From contig JARKOY010000149.1 of the NCBI GenBank assembly GCA_029975555.1, positions 62,001 to 126,000 of the forward strand: 64,000 nt of DNA. Direction: 5' to 3'. Source of the DNA: Spirochaetia bacterium. Its GTDB lineage: Bacteria; Spirochaetota; Spirochaetia; Treponematales; Rectinemataceae. A program made the translations under genes and the position numbers. Below the pieces are notes generated by a model. The model was not told where the DNA came from and made no database searches. It was given only the letters and a program-made list of their open reading frames with translations. Shown piece by piece: positions 5,395 to 46,500 of this stretch; positions within the stretch are counted from its first letter, which is position 1, and the number at the start of each line of letters is the position of its first letter.

Positions 5395-5410
5395 TTGCAT
5401 ATTTATGCAA
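5395..5410. promoter_or_regulatory. Palindromic operator candidate between acn and gltA
   Basis: TTGCATATTTATGCAA has perfect 7-base arms around TT. It lies in the 170-bp divergent region between acn and gltA, about 50 bp upstream of each plausible transcription start. Fourteen of its bases recur upstream of gltB (1908-1921), so one regulator could act on all three transcripts. TTGCAT itself could also be the -35 of gltA, with TATTAC at 5420-5425, although the 19-nt spacer is long. Confidence 0.5.
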
Positions 5411-41836: not shown

Positions 41837-41938
41837 TATAAAAAAGTAATGAATGCCCAGTTGTCCATGTGTCTGAAAAAAACGCGCGGCGCACGGCCCC
41901 ATCGCTGCAGGATTTTTATAATTATGCGTTTTAAAACC

Positions 41939-41967
41939 TTGACAAAAGTGCTGATTTGTATTTTTAT
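41939..41967 (+). promoter_or_regulatory. Promoter of the arg leader and argCJBD
   Basis: A consensus TTGACA (41939-41944), a 17-nt spacer and TTTTAT (41962-41967) predict transcription from about 41974. The RNA would carry a leader of about 200 nt before argC, containing a small ORF. The hppA-to-argC gap (41755-42177) therefore holds two opposing promoters and the leader ORF. Confidence 0.6.
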
Positions 41968-41997
41968 GGAGGCACTTTGTTTTTGGGAGGGGCATAT

Positions 41998-42108
41998 ATG
42001 GAATGCTCACTTCTCACTTCTATCGCCTCACAATCCTTGAGTTCTCTGTGGAGAACCCTCCGTATCTTCCATTCCTACCGAACGCTTCTTCTCTTCCGTC
42101 GTCGTTGA
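41998..42108 (+). CDS. Putative arginine leader peptide upstream of argC
   Basis: A 36-codon ORF with its own SD (GGGAGG 41985-41990, 7 nt before the ATG). It starts MECSLLTSIAS, contains six Arg codons, and ends with CGT CGT CGT TGA, three consecutive Arg codons before the stop. It lies between the consensus promoter at 41939 and argC. The downstream 70 nt are pyrimidine-rich. A 6-bp hairpin (GTTCTC-TGTG-GAGAAC, 42041-42056) falls in the coding part, and TGCAC/GTGCA (42116-42132) can pair after it. This is the layout of a translation-coupled attenuator in which ribosome stalling at scarce Arg would relieve termination. Translation is not proven. Confidence 0.6.
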   Translation: MECSLLTSIASQSLSSLWRTLRIFHSYRTLLLFRRR

Positions 42109-42177
42109 TTCCTTCTGCACCGCACGCGTGCATTTCGCTGTTTTCCCCATTACACTTGTGAGTGAAAGGAGATGCCC

Positions 42178-43227
42178 ATGGTTCATGTGGGTGTTTTGGG
42201 AGCCACCGGCTATGCGGGGCTCGAATTGACGAGAATTCTGCTCCAGCATCCTGAGGTGGACAAACTCAGCGCCTCTTCCGTCAGTTTTGAAGGGAAATCG
42301 CTCGAAGACGTCTATCCTTCGATGGTGAACCGGCAGAGTGACACGGCGCTCCCTGAGCTTAAAAAGGCTGAGGATGTCATAGCTGCGGCCGATGTCGTCT
42401 TTTCCTGCCTGCCGCACGGCCACGCCGAGGAGGCGGGCTACCAGTGTGTGTCGGCGTCCAAGCCCTTCATCGATATCTCTGCGGATTTCAGGTTCGGTAC
42501 ACATGAGGATATCTTCAAAAAATGGTATGGCGCCGGCTATACGTATCCAGAGCTGCACGCCGTGGCGGTGTACGGGCTTCCAGAGCTGCACCGCAAGGCC
42601 ATAAAGGGTGCGGCGCTCATCGCGAATCCTGGCTGCTATCCAACCTCTGTGGAGCTCGGCCTCATGCCCGCGCTCCAGGGGGGAATCGTGGAGCTCTCGA
42701 GCATCGTGATCACCTCGATGTCCGGAGTGACGGGCGCAGGCAGGGAGCCGAGTCAGACGACGCACTACCCCGAGGCCGCAGATGCCGCCTCGCCGTACAA
42801 GGTGGGCTCGCACCGTCATCAGCCGGAGATCGACCTTGTGCTTTCGGAGATGGCGGGCGCGCCCGTACAAAGCGTGTTTACGCCGGTGCTGGCGCCCATG
42901 AACCGCGGGATCGTCAGCACGATCTGTTTCAGGCTTGCGCGCCCGTTGTCTGCGGCCGACCTGCACGCGATCTACGAGGAACGCTATGCGGACGAACCCT
43001 TTGTGCGCGTGCTGCCTCTCGGCAGCACGGCTTCGAACCGTTTCGTCAAATTTTCGAATTACTGCGACATTTCGGTGCATCTGTCGGCGGACGGCGAACG
43101 GGCCGTCGTTGTTTCGACGATCGACAACATGGTGAAAGGCGCGGCTGGTCAGGCCGTGCAGAACATGAATATTCTTCTGGGCTTCGAGGAAACAGAAGGG
43201 CTCAGGTTCATTCCGCCTGCGTTCTGA
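42178..43227 (+). CDS. argC: N-acetyl-gamma-glutamyl-phosphate reductase
   Basis: A 349-residue ArgC, which makes N-acetylglutamate semialdehyde with NADPH. The Rossmann motif is VGVLGATGYAGLELTRIL. The active-site Cys is in IANPGCYPTSVELGLMP, with SGVTGAGREPS and the His of SHRHQPEID nearby. The ATG at 42172 abuts the SD (AAAGGAG 42165-42171), so ATG 42178 (MVHVGVLG) at 6-nt spacing is preferred. It is the first structural gene of argCJBD, and a leader peptide precedes it. Confidence 0.95.
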   Translation: MVHVGVLGATGYAGLELTRILLQHPEVDKLSASSVSFEGKSLEDVYPSMVNRQSDTALPELKKAEDVIAAADVVFSCLPHGHAEEAGYQCVSASKPFIDISADFRFGTHEDIFKKWYGAGYTYPELHAVAVYGLPELHRKAIKGAALIANPGCYPTSVELGLMPALQGGIVELSSIVITSMSGVTGAGREPSQTTHYPEAADAASPYKVGSHRHQPEIDLVLSEMAGAPVQSVFTPVLAPMNRGIVSTICFRLARPLSAADLHAIYEERYADEPFVRVLPLGSTASNRFVKFSNYCDISVHLSADGERAVVVSTIDNMVKGAAGQAVQNMNILLGFEETEGLRFIPPAF

Positions 43228-43244: not shown

Positions 43245-44462
43245 ATGAAACAAACGAGGGGCGGTATCACCGCCGCGAAAGGTTTTTTGGCCTCCGGCAT
43301 TCATGTCGGAATTCGCAAAAACAGGGAAAAGAAGGACCTGGCCCTGATCTGGTCCGAAGTGCCCTGCGCCGCGGCCGCGGTCTACACGACGAACAAGGTC
43401 AGGGGCCAGCCTATCATTGTGACGCAGGAGCACCTCGCCGACGGTCGGGCTCAGGCGATCATCGCCAATTCCGGCAACGCGAACACCTGCACGGGAGAAG
43501 AGGGCATAAAGGCTGCACGCCGCATGGCCGAACTCGTGGCACAGTACATGCCAGTCAAAGCCGAGGACGTGATCGTGGCATCCACAGGCGTCATAGGGCA
43601 GCAGCTCGACGTGTCCGTCATCGAGGCGGGTATGCCTGAGTTGGTGAAGGCGCTCTCCAAGGGCGGCTCGATCGACGCCCGCGAGGCCATCATGACCACC
43701 GACACGATGAAGAAAGAAATCGCCGTGGTGGAAGAGATCGGCGGCGTCCCGGTGACCATCGGCGCCATCGCGAAGGGTTCTGGTATGATCCATCCCAACA
43801 TGGCCACCATGCTCGCCTTTATCACCACCGACTGCGCGATCACTCCACCGATGCTCCAGAAGGCCCTCAAAGACGTGGTGCGCGTGAGTTTCAACCGGGT
43901 CAGCGTCGATGGAGACACCAGCACGAACGATATGGTCTGTGTGCTCGCGAACGGTATGGCGGGCAACCCTCTCATCGAAACCGAAGACACCAATTACGGC
44001 GAATTCCGCGACGCGCTCCAATTCGTCTGCGTTGAGCTCGCCAAAATGATCGCGCGCGACGGAGAAGGGGCGACGCGGCTCATCGAGTGCACTGTGAGTG
44101 GTGCGGTGTCCGAAGAACAGGCCGAATCGCTGGCCAAGGGTATCATCACCTCAAGCCTCGTCAAGACGGCGATGTTCGGCGCCGATGCGAACTGGGGCCG
44201 GATTCTCTGCGCCATGGGTTATACGAGGCAGGATTTCGATCCGGACAAGGTCGATGTCGCCTTCGAGAGTCCTCGAGGCTACATCGAAGTGTGCAAGGCC
44301 GGTTCTCCCCTTCCGTTCAATGAGGAGAAGGCGAAGAAGATTCTCAACAATCAAGAAGTGGAGATTATCGTAAACCTGCACGCGGGCGATGCAGAAGTCA
44401 CCGTGTGGGGCTGCGATCTGTCGTACGAGTACGTGCGGATCAATGGCGATTATCGGACATAG
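43245..44462 (+). CDS. argJ: Glutamate N-acetyltransferase / amino-acid acetyltransferase
   Basis: A 405-residue ArgJ. It recycles acetyl groups from N-acetylornithine to glutamate and may also use acetyl-CoA. The precursor is cleaved autocatalytically at the Thr of HPNMATMLAFITTD into alpha and beta chains. Other conserved blocks are AIIANSGNANTCTGEEG, SFNRVSVDGDTSTNDMV and KTAMFGADANWGRILCAMGY. The short MKQTRGGITAAKGF start at 43245 follows GGAGGG. No argA is needed if it is bifunctional. It sits 17 nt after argC. Confidence 0.95.
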   Translation: MKQTRGGITAAKGFLASGIHVGIRKNREKKDLALIWSEVPCAAAAVYTTNKVRGQPIIVTQEHLADGRAQAIIANSGNANTCTGEEGIKAARRMAELVAQYMPVKAEDVIVASTGVIGQQLDVSVIEAGMPELVKALSKGGSIDAREAIMTTDTMKKEIAVVEEIGGVPVTIGAIAKGSGMIHPNMATMLAFITTDCAITPPMLQKALKDVVRVSFNRVSVDGDTSTNDMVCVLANGMAGNPLIETEDTNYGEFRDALQFVCVELAKMIARDGEGATRLIECTVSGAVSEEQAESLAKGIITSSLVKTAMFGADANWGRILCAMGYTRQDFDPDKVDVAFESPRGYIEVCKAGSPLPFNEEKAKKILNNQEVEIIVNLHAGDAEVTVWGCDLSYEYVRINGDYRT

Positions 44463-44473
44463 GAGGTCCAGAG

Positions 44474-45334
44474 ATGGATGAACAATTCAATGCGGACGTG
44501 CTCATAGAAGCGCTGCCCTACCTGCGCAGATTCAACGGCAAGATCATCGTCATCAAATACGGCGGCGCCGCCATGATCAACGAGGGCGTGCGCCAGTCTG
44601 TCATTCAGGACCTCATCCTCATGCAGCAAGTGGGAATGAAGCCAGTGCTCGTACACGGCGGCGGCCCGGAGATCGACCGCATGCTCAAAAAGCTCAACAA
44701 GGAGGCCGTATTTGTCGAAGGCTTGCGCTACACCGACGACGAGACCATGGAAATCGTGCAGATGGTGCTCGCCGGCAAGGTGAACAAAGACCTCGTGGAG
44801 CTGTTTTCGAGAGCTGGAGGGAAGGCTATCGGAATCTGCGGCAGCGACGGTGGGCTCTTTATAGGAAAGCGCCTTCGCAAGAACGGGCAGGACCTTGGGC
44901 TTGTCGGCGACATTCAAACCGTAAACACAGAGATGATCCGCACGCTTCTGGACAACGGCATCATCCCCGTGGTCGCGAGCATTGCGCTCAGAGGAGACGA
45001 AGAAGGAGGATTCTACAACGTCAACGCCGACACTGCGGCCGGTTCTCTCGCAATTGCGCTCAAAGCAGAAAAGCTCATTCTGCTCACGGACGTGCCGGGC
45101 GTCATGGAGGACAAGACGGACCTCGGCACGCTCATCCGCGAGATGGACGTGCAGATGGCCAAGACGCTCATGAAGAAGGGCGTCATCAAGGCGGGCATGA
45201 TTCCCAAGGTCGAAGGATGCCTGCAGGCGCTCGCCCAGGGCGTGAGCGCGGCGCACATCGTCGATGGACGCTCTCCGCATTCTCTTTTGGTGGAATTGTT
45301 TACTGATACCGGCATGGGGACGATGATACGATGA
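44474..45334 (+). CDS. argB: Acetylglutamate kinase
   Basis: A 286-residue amino-acid kinase phosphorylating N-acetylglutamate. The ATP-binding motif is IVIKYGGAAM, followed by VLVHGGGPEIDRMLKKLN, the substrate stretch EGLRYTDDETMEIVQMVLAGKVNKDLV, and NVNADTAAGSLAIALKAEKLILLTDVPGV. The length and the N-terminal helix (DVLIEALPYLRRFNGK) suggest the hexameric, arginine-inhibited type, so feedback control is likely. AGGAGGT precedes ATG 44474. It overlaps argD by 4 nt. Confidence 0.96.
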   Translation: MDEQFNADVLIEALPYLRRFNGKIIVIKYGGAAMINEGVRQSVIQDLILMQQVGMKPVLVHGGGPEIDRMLKKLNKEAVFVEGLRYTDDETMEIVQMVLAGKVNKDLVELFSRAGGKAIGICGSDGGLFIGKRLRKNGQDLGLVGDIQTVNTEMIRTLLDNGIIPVVASIALRGDEEGGFYNVNADTAAGSLAIALKAEKLILLTDVPGVMEDKTDLGTLIREMDVQMAKTLMKKGVIKAGMIPKVEGCLQALAQGVSAAHIVDGRSPHSLLVELFTDTGMGTMIR

Positions 45335-46500
45335 AAGAGCGATTCATGAACACCTACGCGCGGACCGGCCTTGTGTTGGACCATGGGGCTGGCGCGCACC
45401 TTTTTGCAGTGGACGGGACCGAATATATCGATTTTACGGCGGGCATCGGCGTGAATTCATTGGGACACGGACACCCGAAGCTTGTGGCGGCGATCGCCGC
45501 GCAGGCCGCGAAGCTCATGCACGTCTCCAACTACTTTATGACGGAGCCTTCGATGGAGCTTGCAGACAGGCTGACGGAGGCGACAGGTTTCGACACCGTC
45601 TTCTTCTGCAACTCAGGCGCCGAGGCGAACGAGGGCATGTTCAAGCTGGCGCGCAAGTATGGTTCATCGAAGAACCCCGACAAGAACGTCATCGTGACGC
45701 TGAAACAGTCATTCCACGGCAGGACGATCACCACCGTGACGGCGACGGGGCAGGACAAGTTCCACAGGTTCTTCGGGCCGTTTACGCCGGGTTTCGTTTA
45801 CGCCGAGCCAGGAGATATCGGTGCGCTCGATGCGCTGCTCGGCCCGAACGTGTGCGCCTTCGTATTCGAGCCGATCCAGGGCGAAGGCGGCGTGCGGATA
45901 ATCTCGCACGAGTACCTTCGGGCTGCGGAAAGGCTGTGCCGCCAGCGGGACATCCTCTTCTGCGCGGATGAGGTTCAGACGGGGATCGGCCGAACCGGTG
46001 CTATCCTTGCGTGCGAGAAGCTGGGCTTAAAGCCAGATGTGACCGCCGTGGCGAAGGGACTCGCGGGCGGCGTGCCTATCGGCGCGGTGCTCGCCAGGGG
46101 CAAGGCGGCAGACGTGTTTCAGCCGGGGGATCACGGGACGACCTTCGGCGGAGGCCCTTTGGCGGCCGCAGCGGCGCTGGTGGTGCTCTCAGAACTCGGT
46201 TCGCCGGGCTTCCTCGACGAGGTCGACCGCAAAGGCCGTCACCTTATGTCGCGGATCGAAGAGCTCAGGCACCCCGTCGTGAAGGATGTGCGCGGCATGG
46301 GCCTCATGGTGGGTATCGGCGTCGGGGTCGACCCGCACGAGGTGGTCGATGCGGCGCGGGCGCACAGGCTGCTCGTGCTGACTGCCGGCGACGATACGGT
46401 GCGGCTCCTTCCGCCCCTCGTGATTACGATGAAAGACATCGACGAGGGCGTGGCAGCGCTCAAACTGGCGCTGGACGATGTGGAAAAGGCGCACCGATAA
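45331..46500 (+). CDS. argD: Acetylornithine aminotransferase
   Basis: A 389-residue PLP-dependent class III aminotransferase converting N-acetylglutamate semialdehyde to N-acetylornithine. Motifs are FFCNSGAEANEGMFKLAR, SFHGRTITTVTATGQDKFH, FEPIQGEGGVRI, LFCADEVQTGIGRTG and the PLP lysine in VTAVAKGLAGGVPIGAVL. The ATGA overlap with argB couples translation. It ends the arg operon, and a strong terminator follows at 46573. Confidence 0.95.
   Translation: MKERFMNTYARTGLVLDHGAGAHLFAVDGTEYIDFTAGIGVNSLGHGHPKLVAAIAAQAAKLMHVSNYFMTEPSMELADRLTEATGFDTVFFCNSGAEANEGMFKLARKYGSSKNPDKNVIVTLKQSFHGRTITTVTATGQDKFHRFFGPFTPGFVYAEPGDIGALDALLGPNVCAFVFEPIQGEGGVRIISHEYLRAAERLCRQRDILFCADEVQTGIGRTGAILACEKLGLKPDVTAVAKGLAGGVPIGAVLARGKAADVFQPGDHGTTFGGGPLAAAAALVVLSELGSPGFLDEVDRKGRHLMSRIEELRHPVVKDVRGMGLMVGIGVGVDPHEVVDAARAHRLLVLTAGDDTVRLLPPLVITMKDIDEGVAALKLALDDVEKAHR

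Follow-up and report, generated by a model that had tools for sequence, protein, structure and literature searches.

Arginine operons are usually described as being under the control of the ArgR repressor, and the locus analysed here raises the question of whether a short reading frame in front of argC, ending in three arginine codons, adds a ribosome-mediated layer of control. The window (the whole stretch of 64,000 nt that was analysed, taken from an assembly of 3.27 Mb) carries on its forward strand the promoter TTGACA-N17-TTTTAT (41939..41967), with the -35 element TTGACA at 41939-41944 and, after a 17-nt spacer, the -10 element TTTTAT at 41962-41967. Direct reading gave the same coordinates as the sequence-only reading of this DNA, and the promoter is kept among congeners; a promoter scan of the window did not list it (its -10 element departs from TATAAT). 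Transcription is expected to start near 41974. A Shine-Dalgarno (SD) sequence, GGGAGGGG (41985..41992, forward strand), identical in eight congeners, precedes a leader ORF of 36 codons (41998..42108, forward strand, ATG at 41998), translated up to its stop as MECSLLTSIASQSLSSLWRTLRIFHSYRTLLLFRRR. As had been claimed, six of its codons are Arg codons, and it ends in CGT CGT CGT (42097-42105) and the stop TGA (42106-42108); comparison with congeners marks these codons (42097..42108) as putatively regulatory.

Further along the same strand come a small hairpin read directly from the sequence (TGCAC-CGCACGC-GTGCA, 42116..42132, without a U-run), the argC SD AAAGGAG with its start codon (42165..42180, from reading and congeners) and the operon itself. 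Profile matches identified argC (N-acetyl-gamma-glutamyl-phosphate reductase, 42178..43227; TIGR01850, 382.8 bits against a cut-off of 233.6), argJ (43245..44462; TIGR00120 and NF003802), argB (44474..45334; TIGR00761) and argD (45331..46500; TIGR00707), the last three likewise above cut-off, confirming that the leader stands before the first arginine-biosynthesis gene. The argC start is more likely at 42178 than at 42172, since the ATG at 42172 lies directly against the SD, a minor correction to an earlier description whose coordinates and counts were otherwise accurate. The other flank of the leader region, opposite to argCJBD, is occupied by a divergent membrane pyrophosphatase gene.

Of three conditions that the sequence-only reading had named as refuting it, two were tested and neither refuted it. 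Alignment of argC upstream regions, for the first of them, found the leader ORF at the same place in all eight argC-bearing species of the genus, always with 36 codons and no indel, and with its terminal Arg codons kept; the spacer 3' of the ORF varies between 61 and 65 nt. The other test, on synonymous and nonsynonymous change, revealed coding constraint, pN/pS across the eight congeners being 0.52 in the leader frame versus 1.12 and 1.01 in the alternative frames. A further ORF (42003-42161), which overlaps the leader out of frame, is open in seven of eight species and broken in L005; it was set aside as a gene in view of this break and a pN/pS of about 1, and its openness probably reflects the low stop density of C/U-rich RNA.

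The constraint extends to the end of the peptide. Within the genus, codons 28, 35 and 36 encode Arg in 8/8 species and codon 34 in 6/8, by means of CGT, CGC and CGA. CGT is rare in the genes of the window (5.5% of 271 Arg codons) yet accounts for 17 of the 22 terminal Arg codons of the genus's argC leaders, and codon choice is therefore also non-random. Across 39 argC leaders, 81 of the 117 residues in the last three positions were Arg (20.9 expected, with a maximum of 35 in 2000 within-peptide shuffles) and every leader (39/39) had at least one Arg there, counts to be read with the selection of leaders in mind, as SD and position decided which ORFs were taken in the window's family (f1) and in family f2, whereas elsewhere terminal Arg was part of the criterion. 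Between genera the terminal Arg codons switch among CGT, CGC, CGA, AGG and AGA, and the rest of the peptide diverges. Both general marks of an amino-acid attenuator, namely a short ORF under coding constraint that separates the promoter from the first structural gene and a concentration of codons for the product of the pathway, are found here. The comparison of relatives establishes the leader peptides as real, and makes arginine-responsive control by the leader very likely.

Terminal-Arg leaders were found 5' of argC in most of family f1, in one f2 genome, in genus g74 of family f3 and in ten species of family f5. In other f1 genera the leader sequence is very different, although it still finishes with Arg or Arg-Lys, e.g. 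MKRSYPLYLPTLLTPGLEPRAPRLYPVRR and MTYTGKSPTSAFSITAFARPSFLPLALLSPPLRRR (peptides are written up to the stop); no argC leader was seen at one f1 locus (L018), and a possible one ending VGSR is present at another (L019). The single f2 genome has a leader reading MTYKPSRKG...ARLRRR, the seven leaders of g74 end in LRRRQA, LRRRRA or LRRR, and the ten of f5 include the ends SRLR, SRFRRFR and RLRLRRR. Final residues thus vary widely (RRR, RRQA, SRK, RRP, CLR, RFR), and no peptide core is conserved across genera. Several f5 leaders have their ATG about 6-7 nt past the -10 element and are probably carried by leaderless mRNAs. No leader was found upstream of argC in many other f5 and f3 species, in many of which an ARG-box-like site adjoins the argC start. 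A sample of 51 argC upstream regions belonging to the remaining orders of the class gave no convincing terminal-Arg leader; they show argC with ARG-box-like sites, or with an upstream neighbour that by eye reads as the end of argR. In many other Spirochaetia (L236-L264) the gene directly 5' of argC reads as argR, giving an argR-argC arrangement. Outside the spirochaetes, no comparable leader was recognised by eye in a scan of the argC upstream regions of 80 genomes gathered by protein similarity.

A second set of leaders was found in front of the family's argG, which lies at a separate place in the genome: 16 of 21 members have a leader ORF with terminal Arg. In the window's own genome it reads MKIHSPVWRYLIFHKARLRQR (L272), and its ATG lies about 6 nt past a TATATT -10 element, so placed that the mRNA is probably leaderless. 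Congeners end in MKMHSLIWHFLMFHKARLRRR and ..KIRLR, other genera in RRLRRR, SRLRRR and RLRRP. R-L-R occurs near the end of 16/16 argG leaders and is encoded as CGCCTCCGT in 14/16, in a search that demanded Arg near the end, not RLR, and that left the start codons of several leaders uncertain; the near-fixed nucleotides hint at constraint beyond the Arg codons alone. A similar ending, RLRRS, lies upstream of argG in L285, outside the 16 counted. Among the remaining five members, four have ARG-box-like sites near the argG start, without a leader. The f5 species showed no comparable leader at argG, which in several of them directly follows a gene reading as argD, and no leaders were found upstream of argF or carA. 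In one assembly carA occurs twice, preceded by almost the same upstream sequence (L327, L328; G000:C43:5673, C108:16001), reflecting either a recent duplication or mixed strains.

The sequence-only reading had proposed ribosome-mediated attenuation in an operon of the ArgR-controlled type. The leader evidence supports this proposal, with the proviso that ArgR has not been replaced: argR gave a profile match above cut-off in the window's genome, and ARG-box-like sites accompany the promoters. In the window, an ARG-box-like palindrome, TTTATAATTATGCG, with three mismatches to TGMATWWWWATKCA, lies 5' of the -35 element (41915..41928); it is better kept in congeners (TTCATAATTATGCA), three of which have a single mismatch at the same place. 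A second site, TGTATTTTTATGGA (41957..41970, two mismatches), overlaps the -10 element and is weak in the window species, whose leader promoter thus has degenerate ARG boxes with 2-3 mismatches. In several other genera a site with 0-1 mismatches precedes the leader ATG by about 80 nt. Overall, matches with at most one mismatch were present within 110 nt before the leader ATG in 23/39 cases, against 0.2 expected from shuffles, and the position of ARG-box-like matches was mostly constant, near -80 or, for the leaderless type, near -25. Because argR is present and ARG-box-like sites occupy fixed places at the promoters, control of argCJBD is probably double, with ArgR repression and leader peptide acting together.

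Elsewhere in the assembly, TGMATWWWWATKCA occurs once without mismatch, at window positions 5396-5409 between divergent aconitase and citrate synthase genes, which suggests ArgR control over 2-oxoglutarate/glutamate supply. One-mismatch matches lie before a gene reading as glutamate synthase and at ornithine aminotransferase- and proA-like genes (names by reading). Paired ARG-box-like sites are also present at 1875-1922 of the window, where a gene on the minus strand, glutamate synthase by reading, begins.

The stretch following the leader had been described as having weak hairpins and no classical U-run terminator, and both observations held. The whole leader RNA of the window folds no better than shuffles (z = +1.05), and no U-run terminator was found after it. 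An intrinsic terminator was likewise absent after the leader in 36/39 species, including all eight of the genus, and the three positives (1.4 expected) all belong to genus g44 of the SRLR-ending leaders (L168, L173, L180), in which an ACGGTA-loop-TACCGT hairpin and a U-run follow the stop. A possible competing pairing, TCTCAAAT/ATTTGAGA, accompanies this terminator and is perfect in L180 only. Small stems resembling the 42116..42132 hairpin are present in several congeners, and consensus folding of the leader region in the genus was not significant (z -1.0 and +0.6).

Composition was more distinctive than folding. Over the 120 nt from the leader ATG, C minus G is 0.18, the 99.7th percentile of the window; the candidate Rho-loading region, C-rich and G-poor, was placed at 42006..42125 on the forward strand (C minus G = 0.24 over 120 nt). 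C exceeds G also just past the leader stop, in all groups; in the genus itself U and C are equally abundant in that region, and no pause site could be shown there. As a sign of Rho loading this C-richness, which partly follows from the codons used, is suggestive, not diagnostic. A rho gene in the window's genome scored above its cut-off. In f1 genera an invariant hairpin, GGCG-N5-CGCC, adjoins the leader stop. Beyond it lie a stretch rich in C and A and another hairpin, in which some changes (3 pairs) are compensatory. These elements could plausibly belong to a region of Rho loading and pausing, where the start of the first hairpin would be covered by a ribosome that had stopped at the terminal Arg codons. 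In L010, L012-L015 and L017, an invariant GGCGNNGACCGCC including a fixed GAC lies directly 3' of the stop, before a C/A-rich stretch.

How a leader of this kind would act can be read in several ways. Occlusion of the argC SD, which the sequence-only reading had named together with Rho, would be a form of translation attenuation: the end of the leader would pair with the SD, which would be freed by a ribosome stalling at the Arg codons. In agreement with this, many leaders outside the genus contain CUCC or CCUCC in their last codons, complementary to GGAG, RNAalifold pairs such leader ends with GGAG in g74, and the argC SD of the window is predicted to be mostly paired (8 nt, 11% unpaired). 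Across the 39 leaders, however, the real codons had no advantage over synonymous ones in pairing with the SD region (mean z +0.07), and masking the footprint of a stalled ribosome did not raise SD accessibility (mean change -0.014). Having failed both tests, this half of the earlier proposal appears unlikely, whereas the Rho half fits the C-rich, G-poor composition and stays unproven. Classical attenuation through an intrinsic terminator and an antiterminator hairpin could be recognised in g44, with its terminator, U-run and possible competing pairing, and perhaps in the six f1 sequences where a conserved hairpin adjoins the leader stop, but the lack of any terminator-like site in nearly all species, the genus's eight among them, and a leader folding weaker than shuffles leave it with very little credence.

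The peptide itself might alternatively be the sensor, its R-L-R or R-R-R C-terminus arresting the ribosome in response to a ligand such as free arginine or macrolides and not to uncharged tRNA. RLR and RYR are described stalling motifs of antibiotic-responsive leaders (PMC8632094, PMC12121999), and RLR recurs in all the argG leaders, mostly encoded by the same nucleotides, and in several argC leaders. Against an arrest peptide stand the widely varying final residues with no core shared across genera and the fact that the downstream genes are all arginine-biosynthetic; we consider this reading rather improbable. Its more specific form, in which the R-L-R or R-R-R end is an arrest sequence sensing free arginine on the ribosome in two operons, layered on ArgR, is doubtful to a still greater degree; if true, it would give the arginine attenuator peptide of fungi a counterpart among prokaryotes, in one spirochaete order. 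Finally, the ORF could encode a functional small basic protein or have arisen by chance, with ArgR alone controlling the operon, in keeping with the presence of argR and ARG-box-like sites and with the many f5 species whose argC has only such a site by its start and no leader. Coding constraint makes a chance ORF very unlikely, and a protein function would leave unexplained both the terminal Arg in otherwise unlike peptides and its recurrence on argG, so that this account is the most remote of those considered.

Because the leaders have in common a C-rich, G-poor composition, few terminators, no support for SD occlusion and a genome with rho, Rho-dependent attenuation is favoured. We propose, with a probability only slightly better than even (roughly 0.55), that the leader senses arginine and acts in cis on argCJBD alongside ArgR repression, a ribosome stalled by starvation preventing Rho-dependent termination. 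When charged arginyl-tRNA is low, the ribosome would stall at the terminal Arg codons and remain on the RNA, over and beside the C-rich stretch, which extends along the ORF and beyond its stop; Rho would then be unable to load or to catch up, and RNA polymerase would continue into argC. When arginine is ample, the ribosome would finish and depart, and Rho would end transcription on the exposed C-rich RNA before argC, with ArgR repressing the promoter in parallel. The comparison of relatives supports a coding ORF, selection of its terminal Arg codons and the occurrence of such leaders at the family's argC and argG alike; that starvation is the signal and Rho the effector, and in which direction control runs, is what we infer.

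In the open-access literature searched, outside which most subscription journals lie, no leader-peptide attenuator for arginine biosynthesis was described. The leaders reported here belong to one spirochaete order and precede argC and, within a single family, argG as well; many have Arg codons right at the stop, and nearly all lack intrinsic terminators. Collectively they offer natural material for testing leader-peptide control, possibly via Rho, and the gain, combination and loss of repressor and attenuator. In some, the start codon appears to open the mRNA; leader-peptide control in this phylum would then include leaderless translation.

Among known systems, Salmonella orf34 and E. coli speFL offer a likeness. 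In orf34, the Salmonella speF leader, two consecutive Arg codons sense arginine and Rho is involved (PMC6386406), and according to a later paper stalling just 5' of the speFL stop codon affects Rho (PMC7815308). The shared features are a short leader ORF, consecutive Arg codons sensing arginine, Rho-dependent premature termination and a stop whose position matters (PMC6386406; PMC7815308). There are also differences: orf34/speFL controls ornithine decarboxylase, and thus polyamine synthesis, not arginine synthesis, and its Arg codons 12 and 13 lie in the middle of a conserved HIRRT domain (PF10940), whereas the spirochaete leaders precede argC or argG and have their Arg codons at the end. Membership in the SpeFL/Orf34 family (PF10940, DUF2618) was set aside, eight leaders having given no Pfam match up to E=1; the leaders had no NCBIfam match either, and no Rfam match in the window at gathering threshold.

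In E. coli tnaC, the ribosome is retained right at the end of the leader ORF and masks a Rho-loading site next to it. The TnaC peptide causes this arrest when induced by tryptophan, and its operon is catabolic; here, unlike in tnaC, codons for the end product suggest starvation sensing for a biosynthetic operon. Attenuators of the trp/his/leu type use intrinsic terminators and antiterminators. The spirochaete leaders resemble them in having, between the promoter and the first gene, an ORF rich in codons for the amino acid of the pathway (PMC1183508). They differ from that type in the missing intrinsic terminator of 36 of the 39 species with argC leaders. Mycobacterial leader ORFs have Cys codons at or near their end, and some of their mRNAs are leaderless, as seems to be the case for some f5 argC leaders; the amino acid and phylum differ, and probably the effector too. 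Compared with the other Spirochaetia sampled, whose argC stands without a leader-peptide layer, and with ArgR-controlled arg operons, with which it shares argR and ARG-box-like promoter sites, the operon described here is set apart by the leader peptide added to its probable control by ArgR.
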